A stretch of 64,000 nt of DNA from Chloroflexota bacterium (GCA_016179765.1 JACPCL010000033.1:1-64000); one strand, 5' to 3'; positions 5,721 through 35,963 are shown, numbered from the stretch's first letter. The notes: generated from the sequence alone by a model not told the origin. Numbers and translations: made by a program.

Positions 5721-5732
5721 AAACCTATCTTC

Positions 5733-7549: not shown

Positions 7550-7602
7550 CAGGCTGGGGTAAATGCAGCCATTGTAGACGGTTTCTAAGGAAGTGCAATG
7601 GC

Positions 7603-8514: not shown

Positions 8515-8622
8515 CCTGCGCCTCCAAAGCCACAGTATAGCATAGCGGGCTTCCCCTCTTGACCTGGGCCTCTGCCCGTGATGTAATCCCCTCGCTAATT
8601 CAAGCGCATAAGGAGGACGACC

Positions 8623-9004: not shown

Positions 9005-10297
9005 CTATGCTCGTGGCACTCTGCCCTGGCGGGCCGCCCATGCCTCTGCCCGACGCTCTTCTTCCGGCGTCTTGACCTTTCGGAACATGACCCAAAGGGA
9101 CAGGTCGTAGGCTATCTTCAGGATGCCCGTAGCGATGAAGGGCAGGCTGGCGGAGGCGGCGCTCCACAGCCACGTCGCCACGGAGGGGCCGGCCGGCGCC
9201 ACCAAGCTGCGGGTAAGGACGTTGGTGCTGGCCATGGCCACCCGCTCCTCCGGCGCAACCACCGCCATGGTATACGATTGCCGCGTTGGCACGTCCATCT
9301 GTCCGAGGAAGGAGCGGGCCAGCCACAGACCTACCGCCAGCCAGGCAAAGGGCGCAAGGGGCATGAGGATGAGCAATACGCTGGAGGGGATGTGGCTGAA
9401 CACCATGGTGTTGATGAGGCCAATGCGGTTGGCCAGTTTGGCCGCTACCCACAGTGAGGCGGCGGCCAGGAGGTTGGAGGCGAAGAAGATAAAGGCGATG
9501 GAGCCCAGCTTCACGCCGAACTCGGTGAAGAACCAGTACGACACCAGGCTTTGGGCTAGCAGCCCGCCAGCAAAGTGGTCCACACTGAAGAGGGCCGAAA
9601 GGGTAAAGATTATCTTCCGGGAGGGCAGCTTCAGCGGGTTGGTCCATCTCTGGCCTGATGTCCCTATCTCCACCCGGGCAGAGACGAAGAGGTAGCATAG
9701 GGCTGCCGCCACGTGGAGGGCGGTGTAGCCCAGGAAGATGACCCGCATGGCGGCCAGGTCCGTCATGCCGAAGGTGCCCTGAAGGGCCTGGGGCAACCCG
9801 GCAGCCAGGGCGCCCAGGGCCGTGGCCCCTGTAGCCGCTATGTCGTAGATGGCAAAGACGTCCGTCCGGCGGTGGGAGGGCGCGGTCTCAGGAAGGCTGG
9901 CGAGCTCCAGGGGTTGTGCGGCGCTGCTGCCCCCGCCCGAGGCGCTGAAGCTGGTGATCAGGGCGGCCAGCGCCAGCAGGGGGAAACTGTCCGAAAAGGC
10001 CAGGGTCACGCCCATGACGGCGGAGCCCAGGGTGAAGAGCATCAGCAGCCGGCGCAGGCCGATGCGGCTGGCAAACAGCCCCACGAGCAAGGCGTAGACC
10101 GCCGTCCCCACCAACCCGATGCTGATAAACGCGCCAATCTGCACCAGGCTGAACCCCAGCCGGTCAAGGTAGATGGCCAGGATAACGGAGACCGCACCCT
10201 GGGCAAAGGTGCGGACGGCCCGGGAGAGGATGATGAGCCTGCCATCCCGGTTGATCCAGGCCAGGGGGAGGACGAAGCGGTTTTGCGGTGTTGCCAT
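9005..10297 (-). CDS. MFS transporter
   Basis: ~12 hydrophobic segments, FASRIGLRRLLML, RSFLGQMDVPTRQSY. Confidence 0.85.
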   Translation of the reverse strand: MATPQNRFVLPLAWINRDGRLIILSRAVRTFAQGAVSVILAIYLDRLGFSLVQIGAFISIGLVGTAVYALLVGLFASRIGLRRLLMLFTLGSAVMGVTLAFSDSFPLLALAALITSFSASGGGSSAAQPLELASLPETAPSHRRTDVFAIYDIAATGATALGALAAGLPQALQGTFGMTDLAAMRVIFLGYTALHVAAALCYLFVSARVEIGTSGQRWTNPLKLPSRKIIFTLSALFSVDHFAGGLLAQSLVSYWFFTEFGVKLGSIAFIFFASNLLAAASLWVAAKLANRIGLINTMVFSHIPSSVLLILMPLAPFAWLAVGLWLARSFLGQMDVPTRQSYTMAVVAPEERVAMASTNVLTRSLVAPAGPSVATWLWSAASASLPFIATGILKIAYDLSLWVMFRKVKTPEEERRAEAWAARQGRVPRA

Positions 10298-10481
10298 AGC
10301 TGCTGCTGTAGTATACAGCGCACCGGTGGTGCGCAGCGCACGAAGGCCAGCAGTCCGGCGAGGCAAGGGGGCGCGGCTGCCTGGCCCGCTTGTCCTTCCT
10401 TTAGCGGGGTACAGCTTTGGCTGTTTCGAGAATCGTGTGTGCTAGCAAGGGGGAAGAGCGTGTTTCGTGAGAAAGCCGCAT

Positions 10482-10515
10482 GCCGAGCTTAACCCCCTTG
10501 AGCGGGACTGCAGAG
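10482..10515 (+). repeat. R3 repeat GCCGAGCTTAACCCCCTTGAGCGGGACTGCAGAG
   Basis: Near-identical to 13666-13692 and (minus) 36010-36036. Confidence 0.6.
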
Positions 10516-10614
10516 CATGCCTGAGTATGGATTTGAGTCATGTCTGGGAAGGTGGACCGGGTTAAACCTGGATCGTCCTATCCTCGCTCAATTCCTAACA
10601 CGTATACTTGGTGT

Positions 10615-11778
10615 ATGGCACTCACCTGGCGGAATCTAATCCTGCTTGTAACCGCGTCATTGCTGGCGGCGTGCTCATCACCCGCAGTAACCCCTTCTCC
10701 TGCGTCTGAATTGACCCCCGCTGCGGCCACACCTACACCGACGACTATCCCCGAAAACGAGTGCTCTGGTCTTGACCGGGAGTCGAAGATTGTCAAGCTA
10801 GCCCTGCCTGAGTTCGCCAACCCGCTGAATATAGGGAGGTTCCTCTGTATCAACAACACGGTCTCTGGATCCATGTCGCCTGCCGCGGGTCATTCCAGGT
10901 CAGTAGAGATAACGAGGTATGAGACAGATCAGCAAGCCCAAACCGCGTTGGGGCCTGTCAATGCGAGCTTCCAAGGCTTTCCTGCAGTGCACGAAACACG
11001 GACAGGTTACCCAGGCCCGGAATCCCTTCAGGAAACGTTGGCTTGGCAGATGTCTATGTGGCTCTTCCGCGTTGCCAGCTTTGACGACACCGCTTATCGA
11101 ATAGGGCCGTCTGTGTCATCCCTTGCCGAGCGCCTCCACGAGGCCGCTTCCCAACTAGGTATCGGGGCATCTCCAACGCAGCCGCCTAGACCTGTGCCTG
11201 AGGCAGCTCTGGGCAACATCTTCGTCCTAGGAGACACGGTCGTTGTGACGGTGGCCATACTCGGTCCTGTTGCAGCAGAGCCGAGCGCGACCCTGGACGG
11301 CAGGTCATCGGACGAAGTAAAGCGGAATACCAGGACTCTACTATTCACCCATATCTTCAGAAACGTGAAAAAGGGGGAGCACCAAGTGCATGTTTCAGGA
11401 GGCGGTGTCAGCCGGACCGAACGCGTGGTTGTTGGGCAGACAGAAACCGCCATCGCTGGCTTACGGTCTTGTCAGGTCTTGCCATTACCGCCTCCCACGC
11501 CTGTTCCACCCGGTGTTCCCACTCCAACACCGTCTCCCGTTCTAGAAATTAGAGTAAGATCGGTTGAGGCATTTGATGGCCATATCAAGACAGTGTTTTG
11601 GTTTGGACCAGGCGGCTATGGATCCGTGACTTTAGACGGTAATCCACCCGACGTGGTCATGAGAGAGGCCTCCGGTCCTCCTACTCAGTTCATCTTCCTG
11701 GCCGTGGGAGGGGGTGACCATGTACTTCTGGCTCAGGGCTATCCGCACCGACTCGAAGTCAAAGTGGGATGTCCTTGA
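10615..11778 (+). CDS. Hypothetical lipoprotein
   Basis: Signal LILLVTASLLAAC lipobox; Pro/Thr-rich linkers. Confidence 0.65.
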   Translation: MALTWRNLILLVTASLLAACSSPAVTPSPASELTPAAATPTPTTIPENECSGLDRESKIVKLALPEFANPLNIGRFLCINNTVSGSMSPAAGHSRSVEITRYETDQQAQTALGPVNASFQGFPAVHETRTGYPGPESLQETLAWQMSMWLFRVASFDDTAYRIGPSVSSLAERLHEAASQLGIGASPTQPPRPVPEAALGNIFVLGDTVVVTVAILGPVAAEPSATLDGRSSDEVKRNTRTLLFTHIFRNVKKGEHQVHVSGGGVSRTERVVVGQTETAIAGLRSCQVLPLPPPTPVPPGVPTPTPSPVLEIRVRSVEAFDGHIKTVFWFGPGGYGSVTLDGNPPDVVMREASGPPTQFIFLAVGGGDHVLLAQGYPHRLEVKVGCP

Positions 11779-12076
11779 CCGTAAAGTGTATATTTGCCTG
11801 TCCCAGTTGGGCAACTGCAACTCCGCAAAGGCCTGGATGGCACCAATCAGACGACAAGGCAACTTTTCGGAATGTCCAAAGGATGAGAGGATGAGGGATC
11901 TGCTGCTCGTCGGCTCGGGCAATCGGGAGCCCGATGAGCACTTACCCAAAATCGGAAGGCTAGCCCGGATAGGCCAGAAAAAGATCCCTATAACCGGATG
12001 GGAGAAGTAGAACAGGGTTGTCTACCTAATAGAGGACAGTAGAAAACCCTGACAAGGAGTTCGGCGGAGCACAGAC

Positions 12077-12529
12077 GTGTTTAGGCTTTTAGGACTGCGC
12101 TTCCCTTCCTGTGGTGTCAACCTTGTTCCGCAGGTTCCGTCGGAGTACGCGGGTTTGGGAGCCCTAGGGATGCTGGTCCTTGTTGGCGCAGTGACTTTAG
12201 CATTACTCTTCCTGGTCTTTCTTATATGGGCAACGGGACATCTTCGGAGGATGTGGCAGTGGGGAACGCTTCTCTTCATCTTAGGTTTAGGAGCGTCAGC
12301 GGTGGGGCTTTGTGTGTATGGAGAGGCTGTAGAAGAGATGGAGGAGTTTCTACCTGTTCTTGAGAAGCAACGAGCCCTCCAGCCGCCCCTTGGTGCAGAA
12401 TGGGAGGCCGGCTTAGAAGTACTAGAGTTGTTTCGATATCTTGGGCTCTTTCTCGGTCTGGGCGGTCTCGGCGCCATGCTTTCCAGTCTTGTCCTCTTTG
12501 TCCTCTCGTGGTTAAGGAGACGAGCTTAG
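12077..12529 (+). CDS. Hypothetical small membrane protein
   Basis: Three hydrophobic segments; GTG start; no family recognised. Confidence 0.45.
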   Translation: MFRLLGLRFPSCGVNLVPQVPSEYAGLGALGMLVLVGAVTLALLFLVFLIWATGHLRRMWQWGTLLFILGLGASAVGLCVYGEAVEEMEEFLPVLEKQRALQPPLGAEWEAGLEVLELFRYLGLFLGLGGLGAMLSSLVLFVLSWLRRRA

Positions 12530-13118
12530 CTTGTTAATACCCCTGTTCCACAGGAACAGTGTCTATGACAATCCCAGGGGCAAGCTCCGTGAAACGTTCT
12601 TGCAAGCGGCGGGGAAGGTATCGCGTAAAGATGGACAAGTTAACGTCGTTGTGGAGTATGGAAACCCTGGAGAATTTGCCGGAGTTGTTGAACGAGGGTG
12701 CAGGCATTGCCGAGCTTATCCCATCTCAACCCTGCCAATCCCTGCTGATGCCCCACAGGTATTGCCGACCCCGAGGTTACCTAAGCTCGGTACGCATTTT
12801 TGTATCTTAGAAGCGGCAGGTATTGGAAAGCTTGAGGCACCTTAAGCTACCTGGCCTGCAATTGACTAGATCCATGTCAGCGCGCCGACCTTCACCTGAG
12901 GTTACCCAAGCCGGACGAAACCTGCAACTAGGGCATAATTGTCGGGAATGAGTGATACCCGCTGGCAGAGCCTCGCAGACAGGTCCAACGCGAATTCCGA
13001 ATCGTTCATGCCAGTAACCATGAAGACATAACGGCTTTGAGCTCAGCGGCGCAGCAACGCTACTTCATCCTATTCTCGCGCTGGAGCTGCGTCCGCTGTG
13101 GCGCATTGTTATGCGGCA

Positions 13119-13535
13119 CTAAGTGCGCTGTCCAATTCCGCGATCACTCGGCTCGATCAGGTCCCACAGATTTCCGTACAAATCTTCGAAGACAGCAACC
13201 GTCCCGTACGACTCGCTTTTCGGCTCCCTCACAAACTTGATACCTCTCGCGAGCATCTCTTCATAGTCACGGCGAAAGTCATCCGTCCTAAGAAATAGGA
13301 AGACCCGCCCGCCAGTCTGGCTGCCGACATGTGCCTCTTGCTCCGGTGTTGATGCTCGAGCTAGGAGAAGGTTCGTTCCGGCTGATCGCGGTGGAGCCAC
13401 GACGACCCAACGTTTGTCTTGTTCAGGCTGATAGGTGTCTTCAATCAGCTCGAAATGAAGCTTGTCGCGGAAGAAGTCGATGGCTTCGTCGTATTCACGG
13501 ACAACGAGCGCCACATGGATGATAGATTGCTTCAT
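13119..13535 (-). CDS. VOC/glyoxalase family protein
   Basis: IHVALVVREYDEAIDFFRDKLHFELIEDT; VAVFEDLYGNLWDLIEP. Confidence 0.9.
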   Translation of the reverse strand: MKQSIIHVALVVREYDEAIDFFRDKLHFELIEDTYQPEQDKRWVVVAPPRSAGTNLLLARASTPEQEAHVGSQTGGRVFLFLRTDDFRRDYEEMLARGIKFVREPKSESYGTVAVFEDLYGNLWDLIEPSDRGIGQRT

Positions 13536-13840
13536 AGTGTCGGTGAGGCTTCACGAGTCATTGCCGCATAACTCTTGATTAGGCTGCACTTTTGCAGTAT
13601 ATCATCCCAAAGGTACACTAACCAGTCCATTAACCAACCCCTTACCCAGAAATAATGCCGGTATTGCTGAGCTTAACCCCCTTGAGCGGGACGGTTGGCG
13701 CACTGACTAATGAGTGCGGTAGTCATGAGCGCAGGGGCTATCCTGCTTCACCGGGGCCGCCATGTTGACCCCATTGCTGCCCAGGCGACTCTCAAGGTGG
13801 AGAGCTATGTAGCTGCGTGATTCCACCCGTAGCCTTAGAG

Positions 13841-13879
13841 AAAGCAAAAGAGTCCCGACATAGTCGGGACTCTTTTGCT
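13841..13879. terminator. Intrinsic-terminator-like hairpin downstream of rny
   Basis: AAGCAAAAGAGTCCCGAC-ATA-GTCGGGACTCTTTTGCTT. Confidence 0.7.
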
Positions 13880-13891
13880 TCTACCCCTGGG

Positions 13892-15409
13892 CTATTTGGC
13901 GTACTCTACGTTGCGAGTCTCCCGGATGACGATGACCTTGATCTGGCCTGGGTAGACCAGGGTGTCCTCTATCTTCTTGACGATGTTGCGGGCCAGGTTG
14001 GCGGCGGCGACGTCGTCCACCACCTCCGGTTTGACCATGATGCGGACCTCCCGCCCTGCCTGGATGGCAAAACTCTTTTCAATGCCGGGGAAGGCGTTGG
14101 CGACAGCCTCCAGGGCTTCCAGACGCTTGACATAATGCTCTAGGGTGTCGCGGCGAGCCCCTGGGCGGGCGGCGCTGATGGCGTCGGCGGCGGCCACCAG
14201 GAAGGCCTCTACGGAGCCCATCTGCTCATCATGGTGCTCCATGATGGCGCGCCAGATGGGTTCGGTGATGCCGTACTTGCGGGCCACGTCCGCGCCAATT
14301 TCGGCGTGCGTGCCTTCCACCTCATGGGTGAGGGCCTTGCCGATGTCGTGCAGGAGGCCGCCGGTCTTGGCGATTTCAACGTTGGCGCCCACCTCTGCCG
14401 CTATCATGCCAGAGAGAAGGGAGACCTCAATGCTGTGCTGGAGGATGTTCTCGCCATAGCTGTAGCGGTACTTGAGGCGTCCCAGGAGCTTGACGAGCTC
14501 TGGGTTCATGCCGCGGATGCCGGTCTCAAAGATGGCGCGTTCGCCCTCTTTCCAGATGGTGTCATCCACCTCTTTCTGCGCCTTCTTTACCGTATCCTCA
14601 ATGCGGGCGGGCTGGACCCTGCCGTCCTGGATGAGGTAGGTGAGGGCTCGCCTTGCCACCTCCCTGCGAATGGGGTCAAAACAGGAGATAGTGACCGCCT
14701 CTGGGGTGTCGTCAACAATCAGGTCAACCCCGGTGGCGGCTTCGATAGCTCGGATATTCCGTCCTTCGCGGCCGATGAGACGGCCTTTCATCTCATCATT
14801 GGGAAGGGGGACAACAGCGGTGGTGGTCTCGGAAACGACGTCTGAGGCGAGGCGTTGTATGGAGAGGGTGACGATCCTGCGGGCCTTCTGGTCCGCTTCC
14901 TCCTTGGCCTGCTCCTCCATATCCCGGTAGCGGCGGGCCAACTCGTACTGGATCTCCTCCTCAGCCCTGCGCATGAGCAGCTCTTTGGCATCGTTCACGG
15001 AGAGACCAGAGATCGCCTCAAGCTGCGCCTGTTGCTTGCCTTTGAACTCTTCCAGCTGAGCCTCTTTGACCTCCAGGTCTTGCTCTTTCTGGACCGATGC
15101 CCGCTCCCGCCTTTCCAGGGCTTCGTTGCGACGTAGGAGTTGTTCGTCCCGGTGACTCAGCCGCCGCTCCTGCCGTTGGAGCTCCGTGCGGCGGTCTCTC
15201 AACTCTTGCTCGGCCGCGGTGCGCAGCTTCAGCGCCTCCTCCTGCCCCTCCAGGAGCAGCCTCTTCTTGGCCTCCTCCCCCTGGGCAATGATGGCTGAAG
15301 TTCTGTTTTGGGCGGCCTTTTGGCCTCGCTGGGCGATTATGACGCGAACAAAGAACCCACCTGCTGTCCCCAGTCCCAACGCCACGAGGACGGCCACGAT
15401 GATGTCCAT
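13892..15409 (-). CDS. rny: Ribonuclease Y
   Basis: N-terminal TM, coiled coil, KH ([27 protein letters not shown]), HD ([26 protein letters not shown]). Confidence 0.97.
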
Positions 15410-15571
15410 GGCCTGTGCCGTCCTTTCGTTTTGTGTCGCCAGGGCGGTCCTTAGGTGCTCCTGGCTGGACTGTTGGTAGTTCCAGATTAACCGTCAGGGG
15501 TGGTGGGTGTCAAGGTGGTGGGTTGCTGCGCACCCTTTGCTCCTGGGTGTTCGTAGCCGCTCCTGGCGCTA

Positions 15572-15691
15572 ATGGTCATTAACAAAATAAGCTTTCTTGT
15601 CAACTAGGGAGAGTTTCCCCCCTTGCGGGGGAAGGAGGGATAGGGGGTAAAGTCCTGCCCGCCAAAGCACAAGTATTTGTTTGACGACCAT
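15572..15691. mobile_element. MITE family A copy 3 (shortened)
   Basis: ATGGTCATTAACAAAATAAGC...GCACAAGTATTTGTTTGACGACCAT with one internal TTCCCCC..GGGGGAA module. Confidence 0.75.
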
Positions 15692-23699: not shown

Positions 23700-24890
23700 T
23701 CATGCCTCCAGGGATTTCCCTTCCGGTAGCTCCCGCATGCCCTCAAAACGCTGCTCCAACTCCCCCGCAAGTTGACTCAGCCTGACGATATTTTCCCGGG
23801 CTGACACTAGGCCCTCCTGCTTGAGCCGGTCGGCCATGTCCATGGCTTCCATCAGGGCGTTGTGGGCCTGGGTGATCTTCTCCAGGGCGACGACCGGTTC
23901 TTTATAGACGTCGCCAATCTCCTGAGTATGCCGTTTGACGGCCTCAGCGTTCGCCACGATCATCTCGCCCAGAAACTCCCGCGTGCGCTGCGTGGCTTCC
24001 AGGACCCTCCTCTGCCGGGCAAGGGCTACCTGAATGGCCAGTCCCACCATTACCACGTTGGTAGCCACGGTGAGGGTGCGCTCCACTGCCTGCCCCAGGC
24101 GAGTGTTGTTTTGCCTTGTCATCTCAATGCTGACAAAGAATTGGGTGTGCACCTCCTCCATGGTGCGAAGGTCCTGGACCCGCATGGAGACATCGTAGAG
24201 AGCGCTCTGGACCCTCTCCTTCTTGTGAGGGTCTTCGGTTCGCTCCATCAGCTCATCAAGTTCCTGCATCAGCAGTTCGCCCAGGTATGCGTTCTTCTGG
24301 ATAGGTAGCTGCTGAGACTCCACCTGCTCGTACATCTTCCGCAGCTCTACGTTGTCCCGGGTGAGCATCATCCGCCCTTCTCGGAGCCTGGTTTCTATGA
24401 TCACAACCTGCTGGGACACCGGTTCATAGTGGACAGCGATCTTCTCCAGGATTCTCAGCAGTCTGTCACGGAAGGGGAGGATGTCCAACAACCGCTGGAG
24501 CAGGCCTGTCTGGCTCAACTCGTGGGGGTTGATCTGTTTCAGGGCCAGGCGCAACTCCACCAGGTCACTGGTCAGACGGTCCGAGGCGCCTTCCTTGGTC
24601 AGCGTGTCCCCTACCCGGGCCCTAAGCAGCACCAGCTCCGAGGCCGCATGCCTCTGGGCTTGCATCCCCACGCTGGTGATGGTGTCTATGACCTCCATTC
24701 CCTTGCTGCCGCTGGCCTCTTCTAGTTGGCGCGCCACCTCCTGGGCCCGGGCCTTCAGCTCCTTTACCTCCTCATCCGATACGCCTTTAGGAGCCGGTGG
24801 TTCCTTCCTTGCCACCGTCAACCCTTTGGGCTCAGTGCCAGGAACGGCCGGTGTATCCTCAATTGGTCCCCGGATTTCTTCTGCTGCCAT
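23700..24890 (-). CDS. TelA-like toxic anion resistance protein
   Basis: Length and pattern of TelA/KlaA family: GDTLTKEGASDRLTSDLVELRLALKQINPHEL, LRILEKIAVHYEPVSQQVVIIETRLREGRMMLTRDNVELRKMYE. Confidence 0.85.
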   Translation of the reverse strand: MAAEEIRGPIEDTPAVPGTEPKGLTVARKEPPAPKGVSDEEVKELKARAQEVARQLEEASGSKGMEVIDTITSVGMQAQRHAASELVLLRARVGDTLTKEGASDRLTSDLVELRLALKQINPHELSQTGLLQRLLDILPFRDRLLRILEKIAVHYEPVSQQVVIIETRLREGRMMLTRDNVELRKMYEQVESQQLPIQKNAYLGELLMQELDELMERTEDPHKKERVQSALYDVSMRVQDLRTMEEVHTQFFVSIEMTRQNNTRLGQAVERTLTVATNVVMVGLAIQVALARQRRVLEATQRTREFLGEMIVANAEAVKRHTQEIGDVYKEPVVALEKITQAHNALMEAMDMADRLKQEGLVSARENIVRLSQLAGELEQRFEGMRELPEGKSLEA

Positions 24891-24927: not shown

Positions 24928-26016
24928 CTAGAAACCTAGTCGCGTTAGCTCATCTTGGACCTCCTTCGCCCGCCGGATGGTCTCCTTCAAGGCCGCGATC
25001 ACCGAGTCCACGCTCGTCTTGGAGGCGCCAGCCCTGAGCAAGGCGAGCTCTATACGAGCGCTATGGAGGGAGGCCTCGCACCGGTGCGCCTGGTTCAGGA
25101 GTTGGTCTACGTGCACCTGAAGCTGGTCCAGCATGGCCAGGCGCTGCTTGTGAGAGGCCAGCCTCTCTTCCAGAACCTCCATCCTCGCCCTTTGACTTTC
25201 GTCCGCCCTCGAGGACTTAACCTCCCTGTCGAGCTTCGCTATTTCGGCCTGAAGCCGATTCCTGTTCGGTCCGAGGCCTGCGCTCATGAGGTCCAGGGCG
25301 TAGGCCAGGACGCTCAGGCCGCGACGGTAGGTCTCTGTGGCCAAGGCGGGAACTTGCACGATGGCGAGAGGATCGGTATCCATCCGGCGCTCGAAGACCG
25401 CTTGCAGCTTGTGGAACTCCTCCTCTAGCCCTCTCAAGGCTTCTTGCCCATGGGCTGACTCCATGTCGGCGAGGCCCGCCTTGAGCCTCTCTCGCAGTCC
25501 CTCCACCTCTGCTTGCGCCAAGCTCGCCTGCTCCCTCTCTAGCGCGGCCATCACCTTCTGGACCCTTCTTGCGTACTGCTCCGCGTACCGGAAGGCATAG
25601 CGCCAGAGAAACGAACCTGCAGCAGCTACACCCGATAGGCCGAACACCATCGCAGCCCAGAGGCTGCCGCCGCTCGGCGCGATCAGCAAGAGGTAGCTGG
25701 CCGAGGTCACGGCCACGCCCAGGGGCAACAGGGTAGCGGGGTGCTGGACGGCCTCCAAACGCAGCCGCTTCTTGATGGCCGCTTCGGACAGGTTTGCCTC
25801 CGCCGACTGGCCGGTGGAGGACAACTCCTCTAGTCCTGCGCCGGACCAGAGGAGGGCGACTATGGAGGCGGTGTAAGCCAGGAGACCCCAGAACAGGATC
25901 CAAAGCGCTTGCGATACCCAGCGGTCGAGCCACGGAAGGAACCGCATCGCCCCTGCCAGCAGAAGACTGGCGCTCAGCAGCGTGAGTCCGAGTGGATGAA
26001 AGAGTACCGCACGCAT
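24928..26016 (-). CDS. Coiled-coil membrane protein (possible XpaC-like role next to TelA)
   Basis: Four N-terminal hydrophobic segments then long coiled coil; 38 bp upstream of telA-like gene. Confidence 0.6.
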   Translation of the reverse strand: MRAVLFHPLGLTLLSASLLLAGAMRFLPWLDRWVSQALWILFWGLLAYTASIVALLWSGAGLEELSSTGQSAEANLSEAAIKKRLRLEAVQHPATLLPLGVAVTSASYLLLIAPSGGSLWAAMVFGLSGVAAAGSFLWRYAFRYAEQYARRVQKVMAALEREQASLAQAEVEGLRERLKAGLADMESAHGQEALRGLEEEFHKLQAVFERRMDTDPLAIVQVPALATETYRRGLSVLAYALDLMSAGLGPNRNRLQAEIAKLDREVKSSRADESQRARMEVLEERLASHKQRLAMLDQLQVHVDQLLNQAHRCEASLHSARIELALLRAGASKTSVDSVIAALKETIRRAKEVQDELTRLGF

Positions 26017-26043: not shown

Positions 26044-29000
26044 CTAGAAGTACTTGCTGAACTCCTCCAGGACATTGGCCAGGTCATCTTCCGTTGCGCC
26101 CTGGAACTCCGCTCCGGTGGCCTGGGAAAGGATCCTGCCGATGTCAAGGTCTGCGTCGCCGATTCCGATGAAGAAGACCTGGATGGGATGTGTGGTCTTG
26201 ACGGCCAATTCGTCGCCTACAATGCTTGCCTTATCAATGGGCCTGCCGTCTACTGCCACCGCCGACGTTTCGTTTTCCAACCCCCCGAATACCGGAATCG
26301 GGACCTCATCACGAGAGCTCATCTGGATAAGGTCATGCAGCTTCGTCTGGCCCCGGTTGGCGCGACCGTCGGTTAGGACTACCACAGCACGAATGGCGTC
26401 TGCCTCACCTTCCGCCCCATCCGTCATCTCAATACCCGCACTGATAGCGTCGTAAAGCGCGGTCCCGCCGTCCGCACCCATCTTGTGGACGACGTCGGCG
26501 ATGGCGAAACGGCTCTCCACCAACGGGGCAACGGCGATGCGTGTGTTCACGGTGTTGCTGAACGTAAGGAGCCCCACCTGGTTGTTCTTTGCCATGTTAT
26601 CCAGGGCCCGAACCAGTCCATCCCTGGCCTGCTCAATCTTGGTACCCAACATGGAGCCTGAGGTGTCCACAACAAAGGTCACGATGCCCGGCCTCTTCAC
26701 CAACTCCCAGGAGTCGTCAATGGCAGCGGCGACGGCAGGCTGAATTAGCGAAGGATAGAGCCACACTGTCGGTTTCGTCGGGTCCAACCCGAACTCGCCG
26801 TTGATCTTGCTGGAGGGGTCTTTGAGGGAGATGTCTGTTCCTGGCCGGAATCCCGCTGCCATGAAGGCTCGTTGCTGCTGGTCTTCTCGGATGAAGGCGA
26901 TCCACTTCTGTGCTGCCTCTACCTGCTCCTGGGTCACCCAGTCGGCCTGCACGATGCAAGCGCAGTTGCCGCGGGGCATGGAGCCTTCCTTGGGGTAGAT
27001 CATGACCATAGACCCCTGCGCGATGGGTGGTGGAGTGACCCTCTTCCCGTTCACGAAGGCGCGCTCGGTCCCATCATACAGGTGAATCAGGTTGTCCTCG
27101 GGCATGATGAAGAAGTGGCCATACCGGGGGCCTTGGTGCACCTTCGTGTTCAAGACGGTGGTGCCGATTAGGTAGTGGTCCACTAGGCCCTGGAACTGCT
27201 TCACATAGGCAACCACCGCCGGATCGCTCACGTCGTCGGGGGTGAGTTCCTCCGGCGGTTTGCCTGCGGCGATGGAGTAGAGGCCAAAGAGAAGGCTGCG
27301 GCCAGTGCTGGAGGTCGTGGGGTCGGTGAAGGCCACCAGGGGCTGCTGCCCCCACTCGGCCCTGGCACAATCGGGGTGGCTGGCCCAGCCCCGCGGGTCA
27401 TTCCGCAGGGCGATGACGTCGGCATAGCCGATCTCTTTGTCCGGCCAGCCGAGGCATCTCGCCATCGCCTCGTAGGTGACGATGCCAACGACCGGACGGA
27501 CGATACCGAGAGCACCCTTGAGGTCCACGACGTCGTGGCCGACTTCGTGGTTGACAGTGACCATCCAATGGGCATCGGAGGGCGTAACGATGGTAGGGTC
27601 CGGGACGTTCGGAGCGACGTATCCCCCGCTTAGCTGGGAGAGATCGATCCTCGTTCCGCTTTTCACCCGGGGAACCAGGTACTCTGCCTGGAGCTCCGAG
27701 GGAACGTCATGGACTGCGACCACAATCCTCTTGCCGGACTGGGTCCTGTGGCCAGCCTGGTTAAACTGGGTAGACATCTCGGGCAGCAGACCCGTCCTCA
27801 TCAGGTGGCCGTTGGTCCAGTGCACTACTTCAACGGTAGGCTCCGGCGGAGGCGGCCAGACGGCTCTGGCGGCGAAGAAACCAGCGATGCCCAGGACCCA
27901 CAGCACCGCGATGAGGGAGAGTACTCGTTGACGATTCAGCTTGGAGTTAGACATCTCAGACACCCCCTTTCTATGCCGTGCTACCCACACGACCGTTCGT
28001 CCAACGTCTGGCATTGCGCCAAAGCCAGTCCATGCAGTCCGCATTACGAAGAGCCCGCCTCGTTTCACTCCTCGGAGGGCGCCGGTCATGCCCTGCCAGA
28101 GGAGACTCCACATCCAGGCAAGAAGAAGGGCAAGCGTTGAGAGGCTCAGCCAGAGGTAGCCGATGACCATGGACACCGGACGGTAGAGATGGCGGAGCAC
28201 CAGGCCAACGGCCAGGGCAATGGCGGAGGCTACCACCTGCAGATAGTGCAGGATGGTGGAGACGCCCAGACCCAGATAATGTAGCGCCAGGCCCAGGGCC
28301 AAACCGATAGTCGAGACTCCGGCCCACAGGTAGTGGAGGATGCTGGCCACGCCCAGCCAGAAGGGGCGGAGGATAGTGGCGCCTCTCAGGCCCAGATAGC
28401 GCAGGGCCCTGGCGAAGCCCACTCCCATGAAGCGCAGCACCAAGCTGATCGCTTGAGCAATGGTGGTCACGCCTTCCCACAGGAAGTGGACGGTGACAGC
28501 GACGGCCGTCCACAAGTAGCGAAGGGCGGCGACGCCGCGCCCCACGTACCGCAGCACGGCCCCCAACCCCCTCAAGGCGTACCCCAAGGGGGTTACGGTC
28601 ACCATCCAGGCGAAGCGCAGAGCCGTTCCCAGCGCCCTTCCCAGGTACACCACGACTATGGCGGCGACGTGCCCCACGTATCGGAGGACGGCCCCCAACC
28701 CCCTCAAGGCGTACCCCAAGGGGGTTACGGTCACCATCCATGCGAAGCGCAGGGCCGTTCCCAGCGCCCTTCCGAGGTACACCACGACTGTGGCGGCGAC
28801 GTGCCCCACGTACCGGAGGACGGCCCCCAACCCCCTCAAGGCGTACGCCAAGGGGGTCACGGTCACCATCCATGCGAAGCGCAGGGCCGTTCCCAGCGCC
28901 CTTCCGAGGTACACCATGACTGTGGCGGCGCCGTGCCCCACGTACCGCAGCAGGGACCCCAACCCCCTCAGGGCGTACCCCAAGGGGGTCACGGTCACCT

Positions 29001-29424
29001 TCCATGCGGAGCGCAGGGCCGTTCCCAGCGCCCTTCCCAGGTACACCACGACTATGGCGGCGCCGTGCCCCACGTACCGCAGCAGCCTGACCACTGGCGT
29101 GAGGCGTCTCCATCCATAGGTGATGACGACCTGGGCGGGCGCCCAAGTGTAGACACCCCATGCAGGCCATGCGAAGATGCGCCAAGCACCTACCAGGGCC
29201 AGCGCACCTGCTCCCACGCATGCATATCTGACAGCGTTCAGTAGCGTGCCTGTCGCAGCCTCCTCAACTAACCCCTCAGCCAGAGCCCAGGTAACAATTG
29301 CCTCGTTGTTAACCCAGGCCATGGCACAGGCCCCAATGAACAGGAGGGCTAGCCAGCTCCCCAGCCCGGGTGCTCCAGCATGTGATGCTGCGATCTTCGT
29401 CGTTACGGACAACCTACTTTGCAT
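26044..29424 (-). CDS. Giant membrane protein: 44-aa amphipathic tandem repeats + SBP-like domain + vWA domain
   Basis: FVVDTSGSMLGTKIEQARDGLVRALD MIDAS, GGTALYDAIS, LTDGRANRG; start ATG 29424 has AAGGAGGTGAGGAC. Confidence 0.85.
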   Translation of the reverse strand: MQSRLSVTTKIAASHAGAPGLGSWLALLFIGACAMAWVNNEAIVTWALAEGLVEEAATGTLLNAVRYACVGAGALALVGAWRIFAWPAWGVYTWAPAQVVITYGWRRLTPVVRLLRYVGHGAAIVVVYLGRALGTALRSAWKVTVTPLGYALRGLGSLLRYVGHGAATVMVYLGRALGTALRFAWMVTVTPLAYALRGLGAVLRYVGHVAATVVVYLGRALGTALRFAWMVTVTPLGYALRGLGAVLRYVGHVAAIVVVYLGRALGTALRFAWMVTVTPLGYALRGLGAVLRYVGRGVAALRYLWTAVAVTVHFLWEGVTTIAQAISLVLRFMGVGFARALRYLGLRGATILRPFWLGVASILHYLWAGVSTIGLALGLALHYLGLGVSTILHYLQVVASAIALAVGLVLRHLYRPVSMVIGYLWLSLSTLALLLAWMWSLLWQGMTGALRGVKRGGLFVMRTAWTGFGAMPDVGRTVVWVARHRKGVSEMSNSKLNRQRVLSLIAVLWVLGIAGFFAARAVWPPPPEPTVEVVHWTNGHLMRTGLLPEMSTQFNQAGHRTQSGKRIVVAVHDVPSELQAEYLVPRVKSGTRIDLSQLSGGYVAPNVPDPTIVTPSDAHWMVTVNHEVGHDVVDLKGALGIVRPVVGIVTYEAMARCLGWPDKEIGYADVIALRNDPRGWASHPDCARAEWGQQPLVAFTDPTTSSTGRSLLFGLYSIAAGKPPEELTPDDVSDPAVVAYVKQFQGLVDHYLIGTTVLNTKVHQGPRYGHFFIMPEDNLIHLYDGTERAFVNGKRVTPPPIAQGSMVMIYPKEGSMPRGNCACIVQADWVTQEQVEAAQKWIAFIREDQQQRAFMAAGFRPGTDISLKDPSSKINGEFGLDPTKPTVWLYPSLIQPAVAAAIDDSWELVKRPGIVTFVVDTSGSMLGTKIEQARDGLVRALDNMAKNNQVGLLTFSNTVNTRIAVAPLVESRFAIADVVHKMGADGGTALYDAISAGIEMTDGAEGEADAIRAVVVLTDGRANRGQTKLHDLIQMSSRDEVPIPVFGGLENETSAVAVDGRPIDKASIVGDELAVKTTHPIQVFFIGIGDADLDIGRILSQATGAEFQGATEDDLANVLEEFSKYF
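28561..29088 (-). repeat. 132-bp (44-codon) in-frame tandem repeats, ~4 copies
   Basis: CCCCAACCCC anchors at 28561, 28693, 28825, 28957 (exact 132-bp spacing). Confidence 0.95.
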
Positions 29425-29486
29425 GTCCTCACCTCCTTCCTTCCGTGTCCTCCTAACGGGCGGGCGACGCTGCACAGGCGTCGCCC
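29425..29486 (-). promoter_or_regulatory. Leader element A: hairpin + AAGGAGGTG upstream of vWA gene
   Basis: GGGCGACGC..GCGTCGCCC hairpin and GGACACGGAAGGAAGGAGGTG. Confidence 0.5.
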
Positions 29487-30049
29487 TATGACCCTGCTGC
29501 GGGTGGCTGGCGAACCGCCTCACTGGGCTTGGGCTTCTGCACATCGGCGTACTTCCCGAACTTGCGGACCTCTTGTACCCCCCAATAAATCTGGGCGGCT
29601 CCGTAAACCGTCCAGCCTCCAAAGCCGCCGACGAAGATGTTGAGGAGGCCGACAACTACCAGGGTCGCGCCGATAGCTATGAACAAGCCTCGGTGGGCGA
29701 GAAAGAGGCTCAGTGCGCCCAGGGGCGCTACGACGAAGGCCCACAGGGGGTCCAGGAAGGGTAGGAAGTATTGGGCGACACCGATGGCGATAAGCCCGAT
29801 GCCCCAGCCACGCAGCTCACTTCGCATCTCCTCCCGCGTTGGCTGGCCTCCCTGGGCGTCCGCCAGCTTATCGTGGGCATTCTGGTCAACCGGGCGCACC
29901 TCCTCCTCAGGAGGCAGACCTTGTTTCCTGGCCTCCAGCGTAGTTTCACGCACGTCATGACCGGCCCCATGCACCGACCCTTGGTGCCAGGAAAGGGCGG
30001 GCTGGCTGCCGAAGGGTTTTCCGCAATCAGGGCAATTCAACTCGTTCAT
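29486..30049 (-). CDS. C2H2 zinc-finger-like plus membrane protein
   Basis: CPDCGKPFGSQPALSWHQGSVH then 2-3 TM helices. Confidence 0.7.
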   Translation of the reverse strand: MNELNCPDCGKPFGSQPALSWHQGSVHGAGHDVRETTLEARKQGLPPEEEVRPVDQNAHDKLADAQGGQPTREEMRSELRGWGIGLIAIGVAQYFLPFLDPLWAFVVAPLGALSLFLAHRGLFIAIGATLVVVGLLNIFVGGFGGWTVYGAAQIYWGVQEVRKFGKYADVQKPKPSEAVRQPPAAGS

Positions 30050-30118
30050 CTTTTGGCCTCCTCTCTTGGCTGCTGAGTTCCGTGGTCGCCAGTCCCCTAG
30101 ACCCCGATCTCATCGCTC

Positions 30119-30212
30119 TCACCTCCTTTCTCCTGTGTTCTTTGTGCAGAAAGGCGACGGTACACACCGTCGCCTTTCTCTCCTAACCCTGTTGTGGCCG
30201 GGTCGCCGCCGT
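30119..30212 (-). promoter_or_regulatory. Leader element B
   Basis: AGAAAGGCGACGGT-ACAC-ACCGTCGCCTTTCT hairpin, AGGAGGTG; 32-bp segment identical to element C. Confidence 0.5.
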
Positions 30213-30221
30213 CTAGTCGCA

Positions 30222-30461
30222 TTAGCCAGCCGCAGCTCGGCGTCCCTTGATTGTCATCACTGCCAGGGCGATGACCAGCAGGGCATCCGCAATATATCCT
30301 ACCGGGAAGGAATCCAGTGCATGCTCGACAGTAGCCCTCATGACCAACCTAGTCACGAAAATTGCGATGAATTGGATGCCCAAAGGCGTAAGAGCCCACC
30401 ATCTCCACCCACGTTTCCAAGCAGCGATAACAAGTCCAGCTTCCAGTAGAAGTAACCACAT
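30222..30461 (-). CDS. Small membrane protein
   Basis: MWLLLLEAGLVIAAWKRGWRWW...; ATG 30461 preceded by AGGAGG. Confidence 0.55.
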   Translation of the reverse strand: MWLLLLEAGLVIAAWKRGWRWWALTPLGIQFIAIFVTRLVMRATVEHALDSFPVGYIADALLVIALAVMTIKGRRAAAG

Positions 30462-30531
30462 TTGAGGTACCTCCTCCTTCATTTTCGGGACTCGTTAGCG
30501 GTATTGCGGTGTCTTTATCTTTGCTCTTAGC

Positions 30532-30627
30532 ACCACCTCCTTCCTTCGGTGTTCTCTGGGCAGAAGGCCGACGGTTCCGTACCGTCGCCTTTCCTTCCTA
30601 ACCCTGTTGTGGCCGGGTCGCCGCCGT
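30532..30627 (-). promoter_or_regulatory. Leader element C
   Basis: GGCGACGGTACGGAACCGTCG hairpin, GAACACCGAAGGAAGGAGGTG. Confidence 0.5.
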
Positions 30628-31025
30628 TATCCGTCTGTATTCGCTGTCGTCGGTTCTGCTACCATCCTTCGCCATTCGCTGTGGGTCATGGGCTTTTCCA
30701 GGATGCCCAGGCCCGGGACCTTCACCACGTAGGTGGGGCCCGACCTCTCCCATCCCTGGCCGGGCGGTGGGGCGTGGCCGTTGGCCCGGCCACCCTGGTG
30801 CCAGGTCCTGCCCTTGCCCCGTATCCTCAGGGCGCCGCTCTCTCCGCTCACCCTGTAGTCCAGGGGCCTCAGCCACCAGGGCAGGGGCGATTCGCCATCC
30901 CAGGGTCTGATGGCGCCGCTCTCATCCGAGGCCTGGCAGTCCGGGGAGGCTGGGGGCGTACTCCTTTTCATCAGGTACTGCCGCTGTCGTTCGGCTCGCC
31001 GCTCCCGCCTGGTCATGGGCTTCAT
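30627..31025 (-). CDS. Hypothetical protein with internal repeats
   Basis: DESGAIRPWDGESPLPWWLRPL / SGESGALRIRGKGRTWH; ATG 31025 with GGAG upstream. Confidence 0.4.
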   Translation of the reverse strand: MKPMTRRERRAERQRQYLMKRSTPPASPDCQASDESGAIRPWDGESPLPWWLRPLDYRVSGESGALRIRGKGRTWHQGGRANGHAPPPGQGWERSGPTYVVKVPGLGILEKPMTHSEWRRMVAEPTTANTDG

Positions 31026-31209
31026 TCGTCCGCTCCTCGTGACCTCTGGTTTTTGACTGCCCTTGACTTTGGCCACATCATGGACTACTGTTACTGCGAC
31101 GCACAAGTGGGTATGGCGTAAATAGTGCTCCATATCTCGCAAGATGTAGCAGCGACGGTGAAAATATCCGTCGTTTCTGCTACGCAAGTTGCAGGAGGGA
31201 TGGCGGCAG

Positions 31210-33927
31210 ATGCAAAAGCGAAACTCGCTGCTCTTCAGCCCGGAAATCCCACCAGACCTGGAGCATGCAGCCCAGGTCCGTGAGGAGGCCCTGGACTGGC
31301 TTGAGACCCATTACCCAGGGGCTCTCTCCTTCACCACCGGCGAGGTGCTCCGCATGGCGGGGGAGTCAGGTCACCGCTGGCTGATTACCCGGCTGCGGGC
31401 GCGGGACATCGGAAACGATGAGGAGTTCAGCCTGCCCGCCGCTGCCGATGCCCTGACGGTCCTCTTCCTGCGGTCCAGAGGGGTGAAGTTCCGCGAGGCC
31501 GTTGACGCCGTCGTTGGGGGCAAACAAGCCCCAAGGAGCCTGGAGCCCAGGTACGGAGGAGTGTGGAACCGGTTGATAGTCATTGGCCTCAAACGCCTGC
31601 GTCGGCGTGTTACGACACGCCTCCTGGGCAGCGCCGTGGCCGCCCTCCTCCGCGACCCGAAAGATCACCCCAACTGCCTCATCATCGTCAAGCGTCTTGG
31701 AAAGGGTGCGGATGTCGGTGCGTCCAGCAAGGCTAACGCCGCCAGTCATGAACACGTGTACCGGACGGTCCTAGAACGCCCGGCTCCATCGTGTTGGGTG
31801 ATCTCTCCCTTCCGCGAGGTCTTATATCTGGACGAAGACCAGCTTCCCACGCGCTCGGAGGTGACCTCCCGCCAATTTGTCGGGCTCCAGGTCAAGACTG
31901 CGCGTGAAGTCTACGAGCTGCTTCTGGGGGCCATGAGGCCGCTGTCGGTTGTCTTGGACAACGCGGCCCTGGAGTTCGTTGGCAAGATCCTTGATGCCGT
32001 ATTCCTGGATTTCGAGGAGTTTTACCGAAGGCAGTCGGTTTCCAAGTTCGAGGCCGCCACTGAACCGGAACCCAGCTCCGCGGATGACCTGCAACTATGG
32101 TTGATGTCCCAACTCCTCGCCGGTATCTATCCTGGGTCGCTGTGTGAATTGAGCGAGTCGTCCCAGTTCTCCCCACTGACCCGGGTGCTTGCCAATTCGG
32201 CGGCCAGGCCCTGGGAGCCTTCGCCATGGGAGCCTGCCAAGAGCCTGGAGATGCTCTCTGGGTATGCGAGCCGGGTTGGCGTTCCCCTGGTGGTGGAGAA
32301 GGTTGAGCCGCCCTGGATGTCGGTCGTTGAGTTCGTTGAGTCCGAGTTGCGCTATCTCAGAACCACAGCCACGGAGGATAGAGGCGCCGCAGAGTTCTCT
32401 GCTTTGGCTTTGCCCATCGCTTCCAGCTCCGGCAACCCCATAGGCTCGCTCTACATGCTCCTGCCTCGCCTTCAAGGGCCTCGCATGGACGTGGAGGTGC
32501 GCATTCTGACAGTGTTCAGTAGAATCATAGGAGAGATCATGGAACGGCAGAGGGCTGCCATTCACTCCGCCATCGTATCCGCGACGGCGGTTTCACATGC
32601 CATTCTCAAGCCAGAGCAATTCAAGACCGCACTGCTGGAACTGCTGCGTCAAAGCACCGGCGAGCTACAGGAGAATGGACATGCACAGCCAGACGTGAGA
32701 CTCCCCTTCATCCTCTTGTCCGCGTACTGTCCCGAGCCGGATGAGCTGGACCCTGCTACTTCAGGCCGCCTCAAAGACTGGCTCATAGATACGCTCCATC
32801 ATCTGGAGTGGCGCTCCTTTGTCCGGTCCCACCTGCCAGGCGCTCCAGAGGAGTACGGAGCGCAGGGCTTCATCGGCGAGGTGCCAGGTGTGGGGATGAT
32901 GGTCGCCCTGGGAAGGCTGGTCTCCAAAGACGAGTTGGACCGTATTCGGAACGCCTTCCCGACAAATTTCAACCGGATTACTCCAACCAACTCCCCCGTC
33001 AAGCTGGTGGCCTGGGTGCTGGATGTACCCGCACAGCAGATTCTGGATGCAGCCGACCACCACGACCTGCCAGGCTTGGCCGACCGTGTAGAGAGATGGG
33101 CTTTCGATGTAGCGTCCCTGGTGGACGATATCGCCCAGAGCTCTTCTCTAGCCCACGAGCAGGGGGAATGGGACGCAGCCCTTCGGAGGATCCGGAAGGC
33201 TTTCCAGAAGGAGGGCGCACGCAGTAACTCATATTTGCGCAGACTTGCCGCCGATTGTTCCTTTGCCTTGGGCGACTGGCCCAGCGCCCTCAAGTACGCT
33301 CAGGAGGCAGCCACGCTGAGCAAATACGAGCTGGGGAGCGGTCTTGTTCGGTCGTTGTGCCAGGAGGGAGATGCCCACCTGTGCCTGTGTCAGCCAGTGC
33401 GTGCGTGGGACCTGTATTCCGACGCCGCCTCACAAGCACCGACCCACCCGTTGCCCCGCTACTATCGGGGACAAGCCCTGCTGCTCATGGCGCGGCTTCT
33501 TGATGTATATGAAGGCGAGCGGCGGCGGTCAGCACAACTGGACGCGGGCGAGGTAGACCAGATCAGGGCGGTGCTGAACACGCTGGTGAGTGGGGCCATG
33601 GAGGACCTCACAGCGGCGGCAGACCTGCTGGACCGGTGGGGGCTCATACCCGAGTCGTACCAATACAGGAACTTCAACCTGGTTCCAACCTTATTGGGTC
33701 AGGGGTTCGCTTATCTCCTCGCTCGCTCGCCAGGCCCCGCCGCCAGCCGTCTCCAGAGCGCCCGCCGGTCCTTCCCCAAGGACGACCTGTTCTTCCGCGA
33801 GTTCCTCTTCGCCAAGTGTTGGGAGCAGGGGCTCCACCGGCGATATGGGGAGCTCTTGCTGGGAGATGAATGGGGGCCGCTGCGAGACCGACTAAACGGG
33901 ACGTTCGGCCAGCTTCATATCTCCTGA
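31210..33927 (+). CDS. Large putative sensory/regulatory protein (GAF-like middle, TPR-like C-terminus)
   Basis: ALALPIASSSGNPIGSLYMLLPRLQGPRMDVEVRILTVFSRIIGEIMERQ; alpha-helical repeats near C-terminus; GGAGGG upstream of ATG 31210. Confidence 0.55.
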   Translation: MQKRNSLLFSPEIPPDLEHAAQVREEALDWLETHYPGALSFTTGEVLRMAGESGHRWLITRLRARDIGNDEEFSLPAAADALTVLFLRSRGVKFREAVDAVVGGKQAPRSLEPRYGGVWNRLIVIGLKRLRRRVTTRLLGSAVAALLRDPKDHPNCLIIVKRLGKGADVGASSKANAASHEHVYRTVLERPAPSCWVISPFREVLYLDEDQLPTRSEVTSRQFVGLQVKTAREVYELLLGAMRPLSVVLDNAALEFVGKILDAVFLDFEEFYRRQSVSKFEAATEPEPSSADDLQLWLMSQLLAGIYPGSLCELSESSQFSPLTRVLANSAARPWEPSPWEPAKSLEMLSGYASRVGVPLVVEKVEPPWMSVVEFVESELRYLRTTATEDRGAAEFSALALPIASSSGNPIGSLYMLLPRLQGPRMDVEVRILTVFSRIIGEIMERQRAAIHSAIVSATAVSHAILKPEQFKTALLELLRQSTGELQENGHAQPDVRLPFILLSAYCPEPDELDPATSGRLKDWLIDTLHHLEWRSFVRSHLPGAPEEYGAQGFIGEVPGVGMMVALGRLVSKDELDRIRNAFPTNFNRITPTNSPVKLVAWVLDVPAQQILDAADHHDLPGLADRVERWAFDVASLVDDIAQSSSLAHEQGEWDAALRRIRKAFQKEGARSNSYLRRLAADCSFALGDWPSALKYAQEAATLSKYELGSGLVRSLCQEGDAHLCLCQPVRAWDLYSDAASQAPTHPLPRYYRGQALLLMARLLDVYEGERRRSAQLDAGEVDQIRAVLNTLVSGAMEDLTAAADLLDRWGLIPESYQYRNFNLVPTLLGQGFAYLLARSPGPAASRLQSARRSFPKDDLFFREFLFAKCWEQGLHRRYGELLLGDEWGPLRDRLNGTFGQLHIS

Positions 33928-33947
33928 ACCTGACCAAGAGGCGGGGG

Positions 33948-33972
33948 TCTGTCCCGATGGAATCGGGACAGA
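33948..33972 (+). terminator. Intrinsic terminator
   Basis: TCTGTCCCGAT-GGA-ATCGGGACAGA followed by TACAATTTT. Confidence 0.7.
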
Positions 33973-34238
33973 TACAATTTTCACTCCCTCCCTGGCCAGA
34001 GCCTGTCCTTGAGCGCAGCGAAGGAAAGGGAACAAGGGGGATGGCCGAAGGAGTTTTTCATCATCCTGCTGGGGATTCCTGCTGCCTCTGATGCCGCCTG
34101 GTAGCCGGGCGTTCTTACCCGTAGCTTTCGGCTGCAAAGTGGCAGGCTCTCCTCACCACCTGTCCATTGCGAAGCCCCCCTGTGCTAGAATGGCCCATGT
34201 CACGCTGGAGACGGCATCTACTCTAGTCACTTCCAGGG

Positions 34239-35963
34239 TTGGCTCTTTCCCTAATAGGCCTAGGGATCCAGATAAGCCCAATCCCAAGCAAGATTCCGTG
34301 GTTAGGCTATGCTGTCGGGGCCATAGGCGGTGTTTTTCTCCTTACCGCGCTGGCGTGGCCTACCGTATGGCGCCCTCGGATTGCCAGACGTAGTGCGCAG
34401 GCCTTGCCCAATGATTCATTGGAATCGCTCACCGTTTCTCTGACCCCTCGCCAGGTGCGGGTTGGCCAACGCGTCATTGAAGAGCATCTTGGCGACCGCG
34501 CTTTTCGCCTCTTGCATTTCTTGTCGGAAAACAAGGGCAACTGGTACACGGTAGCTCATCTTGTAAGCTTGTTGTATCCCGATCCCGAGAGGTCCCCGGA
34601 ACAAGCCGATCAGGCCTTGTCTCGATACAAGAGGACCATCAACGATCTCCTCAAGCCCTATCTACAAGGTGAAGACGCCATAGAATCCTGGCCCTATATG
34701 GGCTACCGTATCAAGCCCATAGTTCAGCCAAAATCCGGACCTTCATCTCCAGCTGGGAGGCATACGCGGGTCATTTGGGTGTCGTCTGGAGCCATTCTGC
34801 TTGTGGCCATCGCGGTGTCCTTGATAATCGTCGCTGGTCCACTGGTTTCCCCCCCTCGAACGTCCATTACTATCACCATCGCCAGCTCAAGCACAAAAAA
34901 GGAATGGATAAATCAAGCCGTCGCCGCTTTCATTGAGGAATCCAAGGCCAACGAGCAGTTCCAGATAGAACATAGGGCTATCGTCGTCACGGTGCTGTTG
35001 GAAGAGATAGAGCCTGGACGGTGGGATCATTATCGGTCTGGCTCCATGATCAGAGACATTCTCTCACGGAAGATTGAGCCAACCATTGCGTCGCCGGCGG
35101 AACAGAGCTGGATACTTGATCTCAAGGAGAGTTGGCCTGACCGTAAGCCCATAGTTAGCGACGATGGACCCGGGTTGGTGCGAACCCCGTTGGTGATTGC
35201 GATGTGGCGGTCTAGAGCCATGGCTCTGGGTTGCTGGCCAACCGCTGGTCCGGATTGTACTTGGGAGCGTCTCCGTGCTCTGGCATCCAGCACCGAGGGG
35301 TGGGGGATACTGGGCCACCCTGAGTGGGGCAAACTGAAATACGGATACGGCTTCGTTGGTAAATCAAACTCGGCCACGTTCACTATGGTTTTGAATTGCA
35401 TGAGCGGCCTCCAAAAGACCAGCGGCCTCACACTGGAAGACGTACGTCGTGAGTCAGGTTGTGGCCACGCGATGCTAGCGCTGAGGAAGCCACCAGGGGA
35501 TACAGCGGTGATACGCATTTATGAGAAGAGTGAATGGGCGCTCCGGGATATGTGGCAAATCGGGCCCTCATATTTAGATGCTGTCACCACGTACGAACAG
35601 GAAGTAACAGAAGTTGCTGCGGAACAGGCCCCAAGACTCCCTGAGCCGATTGTGGCTGCATATCCACAAGACGGGGTTATCATGGCCACTCACCCATTCA
35701 CCATCCTTGATGGAGCACCTTGGGTAACGCTTGATCAGGCGAAGGCAGCCAGAATCTTCCGACAGTTCCTACTTTCCAGGCAACAGCAATCACTTCTTCT
35801 GGGGTATGGATTCCGTCCGGCCGATGCGGCTGCTACCCTGGGGCCACGGATCGACCCTGCATATGGCGTAAACCCACAAGCTAATCTAGCATTGATAGAC
35901 GTCCCTCATAGCCTGGTCATAGATGCTATCGTCAAACTCTGGGAAGCGTTCGCGGCCCTATAA
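34239..35963 (+). CDS. Membrane-anchored winged-helix regulator with extracytoplasmic SBP-like domain
   Basis: N-terminal TMs; wHTH RQVRVGQRVIEEHLGDRAFRLLHFLSENKGNWYTVAHLVSLLYPDPERSPEQADQALSRYKRTINDLL; TM; SBP-like domain; TTG start. Confidence 0.65.
   Translation: MALSLIGLGIQISPIPSKIPWLGYAVGAIGGVFLLTALAWPTVWRPRIARRSAQALPNDSLESLTVSLTPRQVRVGQRVIEEHLGDRAFRLLHFLSENKGNWYTVAHLVSLLYPDPERSPEQADQALSRYKRTINDLLKPYLQGEDAIESWPYMGYRIKPIVQPKSGPSSPAGRHTRVIWVSSGAILLVAIAVSLIIVAGPLVSPPRTSITITIASSSTKKEWINQAVAAFIEESKANEQFQIEHRAIVVTVLLEEIEPGRWDHYRSGSMIRDILSRKIEPTIASPAEQSWILDLKESWPDRKPIVSDDGPGLVRTPLVIAMWRSRAMALGCWPTAGPDCTWERLRALASSTEGWGILGHPEWGKLKYGYGFVGKSNSATFTMVLNCMSGLQKTSGLTLEDVRRESGCGHAMLALRKPPGDTAVIRIYEKSEWALRDMWQIGPSYLDAVTTYEQEVTEVAAEQAPRLPEPIVAAYPQDGVIMATHPFTILDGAPWVTLDQAKAARIFRQFLLSRQQQSLLLGYGFRPADAAATLGPRIDPAYGVNPQANLALIDVPHSLVIDAIVKLWEAFAAL

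Follow-up and report, generated by a model that had tools for sequence, protein, structure and literature searches.

A putative membrane-borne one-component regulator in a Chloroflexota genome, apparently related to a split kinase and FHA-transcription factor system

An open reading frame in the window, the 64,000-nucleotide stretch of Chloroflexota DNA analysed here, probably encodes a membrane one-component regulator that was made by fusion of an FHA-wHTH protein with a Ser/Thr kinase-TM-SBP protein, and that would control an adjoining operon for an SBP-vWA protein, a coiled-coil (CC) protein and TelA. We more tentatively suggest that this amounts to a bypass of the kinase: a relay of kinase and FHA-transcription factor would have collapsed into a one-component receptor that kept the sensor, itself paralogous to the receptor portion of the vWA protein under its control.

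Architecture of the regulator

The regulator ORF (34239..35963, + strand) encodes 574 amino acids when read from the listed TTG, its true start being uncertain. It begins with a hydrophobic segment (residues 19-37, 34293..34349, +) whose hydropathy of 1.63 is barely above the threshold applied. There follow a Trans_reg_C-like winged helix (wHTH; residues 83-157, 34485..34709, +), a transmembrane helix of hydropathy 2.86 (TM; residues 185-203, 34791..34847, +) and an SBP_bac_11-like solute-binding domain (SBP; residues 207-574, 34857..35960, +). The wHTH matches PF00486 over 72/77 positions (E=1.6e-3), its 18.9 bits not reaching the curated Pfam cut-off of 26.2; the SBP domain matches PF13531 (SBP_bac_11) at E=1.7e-7 and its 31.7 bits exceed the Pfam cut-off of 25, in agreement with the class assigned to it in an earlier note on this DNA. 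That note had also proposed a CadC/ToxR-like topology. The order of wHTH, TM helix and extracytoplasmic domain fits this proposal, and basic residues on the N-terminal side of helix 185-203 are consistent with the wHTH lying inside and the SBP domain outside; the second hydrophobic segment, ahead of the wHTH, may depart from it.

Upstream of the TTG there is an in-frame ATG at 34197, followed nine codons on by a TAG at 34224 (window 34197-34241, +). The codons on either side of this TAG resemble the beginning of a membrane protein or membrane helix; the TAG may be a nonsense change or a sequencing error, or translation may start downstream of it. The GC3 of the regulator gene is 0.57, and that of the neighbouring genes is mostly 0.75-0.9. 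A consensus promoter scan upstream of the regulator gave no match, and no operator-like repeats common to the intergenic regions were found above shuffled controls.

The SBP-vWA protein

The vWA gene is listed as 26044-29655 (-), encoding 1203 aa from a TTG at 29655. An ATG at 29424, which has a strong Shine-Dalgarno sequence (AGGAGGTGA), is the more probable start on sequence grounds and gives a gene at 26044..29424 (-) that encodes a hydrophobic repeat part, a TM segment, an SBP domain and a vWA domain. The part conserved among relatives begins at an internal ATG at 27954 with GGGGGTG upstream (26044..27954, -), and the orthologue in genome G240 is 615 aa long. Within this part are a membrane anchor (27868..27924, -; hydropathy 2.48), the SBP-like domain (26704..27846, -), which is homologous to that of the regulator, and the vWA domain (26047..26682, -; PF00092 E=1.2e-13) with the MIDAS-type motifs DTSGS, GGTAL and LTDG. 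The SBP-like domain matches SBP_bac_8 at E=1.5e-5, slightly under the Pfam cut-off; the G240 orthologue is over the cut-offs for both PF13416 (42.6) and PF13531 (40.1).

In its anchor, SBP domain, vWA domain and adjoining CC and TelA genes the window protein is an ordinary member of the SBP-vWA proteins of Chloroflexota. Its giant size is not typical of them: relatives have 550-650 aa, and the additional N-terminal ~490 residues with hydrophobic repeats are a feature of the window member itself. Within this addition a 132-bp unit is repeated 4.2 times in tandem with 93% matches (window 28528-29084, -); it encodes a 44-residue hydrophobic repeat that is missing from the vWA orthologues.

Homology of the two SBP domains

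The earlier note had aligned the C-terminal halves of the regulator and the vWA protein by eye and proposed common ancestry. Both of the sequence stretches it cited are present at the positions given, and the homology proves to be wider than was claimed. Two-sequence BLASTP of the proteins gives E=3e-11, with 24% identity over 286 residues, and their Smith-Waterman score is 135, compared to 36 on average for shuffled sequences (sd 5; z 19), with 0/2000 shuffles equalling it. The HMM-HMM alignment that the note had recommended is significant: hhalign of the two families gives a probability of 99.9 and E=2.4e-35 over 333 columns, which is the entire SBP domain. Control profiles, built for each family without the window's own member, each detect the other family's window protein (E=2.3e-14 and 2.2e-27, Z=1e6); neither matches the genome's only other SBP_bac_11 protein (L001) at E<=10. 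Since the control profiles link the two and skip this third protein, the likeness goes beyond that of SBPs in general and is, by these comparisons, real and family-specific. AlphaFold2 models of both proteins, made from small alignments, have a mean pLDDT of 43 and 41, too low to be relied on.

A closest-kin relationship between the two window domains was rejected; they are 24% identical to one another as against 44-64% to domains in other architectures, and they fall in separate clades. In a tree of 75 SBP domains, that of the regulator forms one clade with two kinase-linked SBPs, from G240 and G109 (100/99), nested within a 100/100 clade that also holds three SBP-vWA proteins; the SBP domain of the window's vWA protein is distant, in a separate vWA-only clade (100/100). 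On this tree the two are remote paralogues from different subclades. Kinase-SBP fusions occur at two places, the regulator clade and family f140, in which the kinase-SBP gene adjoins an SBP-vWA gene; in many other Chloroflexota a plain SBP gene takes that position. Read from these arrangements, the recurring unit is a pair of SBPs, one on a vWA protein and the other standing by itself, joined to a kinase or, in the window's case, joined to a wHTH.

A split form in related genomes

Within the order, 197 genomes were searched at the protein level, and the regulator's SBP domain turned up in two others, G075 and G109. Across the class, ten of 393 genomes have SBP relatives by profile search, that of G240 being by far the nearest to the regulator. 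More distant SBP relatives are carried by 64/400 genomes of the phylum. G075 belongs to the window's genus, G109 to another family of the same order and G240 to another family, outside the order, of the Dehalococcoidia, the class in which kinship to SAR202 places the window. The SBP domain of the regulator is 64% identical to the kinase-fused SBP of G240 and 50% to that of G109; its wHTH is 59-62% and 49% identical, respectively, to the wHTH of FHA-wHTH proteins in these genomes.

In G240 (L034) six genes lie in one single-strand run: FHA-wHTH (5714-6436, +; FHA E=1.7e-15), Ser/Thr kinase-TM-SBP (6533-8731, +; kinase E=8.8e-23), a PH-like/vWA protein (9564-10988, +; weak bPH_2 match), a coiled-coil membrane protein (11599-12519, +), TelA (12535-13779, +) and SBP-vWA (13815-15662, +). 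The SBP domain of the last is 60% identical to that of the window's vWA protein; no counterpart of the PH-like/vWA gene, which lies between the kinase-SBP and coiled-coil genes, was seen in the window cluster. In G109 the FHA-wHTH gene (L014, 173-907) is directly upstream of the kinase-TM-SBP gene (935-3175), and a second contig (L015) carries kinase-coiled-coil, TelA and SBP-vWA genes. The first of these (L015 3632-5509, +), a TelA-linked coiled-coil membrane protein fused to a Ser/Thr kinase, is a second link of the gene set to kinases.

In both genomes, therefore, the FHA-wHTH gene is immediately 5' of the kinase-TM-SBP gene and in the same direction, so that the parts of the window regulator correspond to two adjacent genes in the same order. 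As its halves match these neighbours, the regulator looks like a fusion of them from which the FHA and kinase domains have gone. The catalytic Lys, Asp and Asn are present in each of the two SBP-fused kinases, as is the DFG motif, and HLD replaces HRD. Among the 393 genomes of the class the regulator-type wHTH gives strong matches (E=1e-60) in the window and G240 only, and it is also strong in G109; elsewhere in the 400 genomes of the phylum it was not found, besides two weak matches. In the window, G240 and G109 each such wHTH is fused to, or adjoins, a regulator-type SBP.

A search of the window for an FHA or kinase match or remnant found none. The genome's sole Ser/Thr kinase is encoded elsewhere, and SBP searches across the whole genome turned up no member of this family linked to a kinase. 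Two congeners are without the SBP family and a third has the SBP-vWA form only; TelA, present in G240 and G109, is missing from the congeners without the SBP. The wHTH-TM-SBP fusion is known from one MAG only. SBP-family proteins at L080 7267-9402 (-) and L086 2538-4580 (+) have a long part of no Pfam match outside the SBP, at the N-terminal ~340 residues in the former and at both ends in the latter.

Proposed origin and mode of action

The split form is found both within the window's order, in a different family (G109), and in a family of the class beyond that order (G240), so a split ancestor and one fusion in the window's lineage is the shorter account, and we infer the direction of the change from this. 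The co-directional FHA-wHTH and Ser/Thr kinase-TM-SBP neighbours would have fused, and their FHA and kinase parts would have been lost. Horizontal transfer of the regulator is possible, given its GC3 and the few genomes covered from the family (four, of which two are without the SBP family). Identity between the regulator and G240 by codon position is 0.77/0.79/0.46; the third position is the most divergent, a pattern which, averaged as it is over the window and G240 lineages, fits that of a gene under protein-level constraint.

In the regulator the extracytoplasmic, presumably type II solute-binding domain would sense a small solute or an envelope component, and one membrane helix would relay its state to the cytoplasmic winged helix. 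With the FHA and kinase parts lost, sensing would act directly on DNA binding and not via phosphorylation. The gene neighbourhood suggests that the winged helix most likely controls the adjoining SBP-vWA, coiled-coil and TelA operon, whose vWA protein would display a remote paralogue of the regulator's SBP domain outside the membrane. In the split form the sensor may set the activity of the kinase, and the FHA domain of the FHA-wHTH protein may read phosphothreonine, by analogy with the GlnH-GlnX-PknG-GarA/OdhI system discussed below.

For most bacterial Ser/Thr kinases the stimulus is, to our knowledge, not known. Here the same sensor domain is found on a kinase, a transcription factor and an extracytoplasmic vWA protein in equivalent clusters, and a ligand found for any one of these can therefore be tested on the others. 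The fusion further points to the FHA-wHTH protein as the natural output of the kinase-SBP sensor.

The suggestion in the earlier note that the regulator and the vWA protein recognise the same ligand remains tentative. The two SBP domains have the S/T-P, Y-P-[QK]-[DE]-G and Q-x6-G[FL]RP motifs in common, but they belong to separate clades and differ in two pocket-like loops (SSSTKKEW in one against WTNGHLMR in the other, and SNSAT against SSTGR). We take these loops to be part of the ligand cleft, as such loops usually line the cleft in SBP families. Across the phylum, most kinase- and vWA-linked SBPs have the K-x2-W loop and the S-P, T-P-x2-S-N-S-G, Y-P and Q-x6-G-F-R-P columns in common, and the paired paralogues of other Chloroflexota are almost identical at the columns of these loops; the window's vWA clade deviates, the Trp being missing from the first loop and S-S-T-G-R standing in the fourth. 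From these near-identical loops it is plausible that the family has one ligand class across the phylum, the case being weakest for the window pair.

Alternative explanations

The regulator's SBP domain might instead bind the SBP-vWA protein, or a partner shared by the two, and so report the assembly or occupancy of a vWA complex and not a solute. The pairing of an SBP or kinase-SBP gene with an adjoining SBP-vWA gene in many Chloroflexota speaks for such contact, as do the intact MIDAS motifs of the window's vWA domain, since vWA domains with these motifs usually bind protein ligands. However, the cleft-type signature residues are conserved across the partner proteins beyond what a pure protein contact would need, and we consider this explanation rather unlikely. 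It is very improbable that the resemblance between the regulator and the vWA protein is simply a generic SBP likeness with no functional link: G[FL]RP with its preceding Q is general in SBP_bac_11 proteins, and the Pfam match ends there, but the family-specific profiles are selective as described above, profile searches with both SBP families matched no PDB chain at E<=0.01, and both forms occur in one G240 cluster.

Recent acquisition or decay of the regulator gene, leaving it with no present function, is a live alternative because the fusion has been seen once, the GC3 departs from that of the surrounding genes and an in-frame TAG follows a plausible ATG, the codons after it still being membrane-helix-like. 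Set against this are 574 codons open without a stop, intact domains and a codon-position pattern typical of a constrained protein, albeit averaged over both lineages; we regard loss of function as improbable, and favour a working regulator formed by fusion.

Relation to known systems

Compared with ToxR/CadC-like regulators, as defined in PMC5936718, the window protein has the same order of a cytoplasmic, putatively OmpR/PhoB-type wHTH, a membrane helix and an extracytoplasmic sensor, and likewise no phosphoacceptor. It differs in that its sensor is an SBP_bac_11 domain, in its extra hydrophobic segment and in that the nearest relatives found for its wHTH are FHA-wHTH proteins, not ToxR members. 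The split form of G240 and G109 resembles the GlnH-GlnX-PknG-GarA/OdhI system of Actinobacteria, in which an extracytoplasmic SBP controls a Ser/Thr kinase acting on an FHA protein (PMC6069109, PMC8546545). There, however, three separate proteins serve as sensor, membrane component and kinase, and the FHA protein regulates metabolism, whereas the split form has the SBP on the kinase and a wHTH on the FHA protein; the window cluster is without kinase and FHA. Judged from its sequence, the regulator is apparently a new variant of membrane one-component regulator, derived from a kinase-FHA relay. A literature search found no paper on a system combining SBP, vWA, TelA and kinase, and an account of vWA conflict systems (PMC7159879) does not mention TelA or solute-binding domains.

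In SgrR of E. coli and in LysR-type regulators a DNA-binding domain is also fused to an SBP-like domain. These are cytoplasmic, without a membrane helix, and their SBP is of another family, whereas the window regulator is predicted to be membrane-borne. No ABC permease or ATPase genes were recognised in the G240 cluster or in the ORFs of the 20-42 kb region, part of which were profile-searched.

Neighbouring genes

The gene following SBP-vWA encodes the membrane coiled-coil protein (24928..26016, -), 32% identical to the C-part of the kinase-coiled-coil protein of G109, and beyond it is the TelA homologue (23700..24890, -; PF05816 E=6.4e-43). Just upstream of the vWA gene, 29486-30049 (-) encodes a membrane protein whose N-terminus carries a C2H2-type zinc finger (PF00096 E=1.3e-3, below the cut-off), a type that is unusual in bacteria. 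Between the vWA and regulator genes, 31189-33927 (+) encodes a 912-residue protein with a TPR-like C-terminal part (weak Pfam matches) and, by eye, a GAF-like middle; no counterpart of it was found in the related clusters. Shortly 3' of this gene, at 33948-33972, there is an inverted repeat whose 11-bp arms match perfectly around a 3-base loop (TCTGTCCCGAT-GGA-ATCGGGACAGA), which is probably a terminator.
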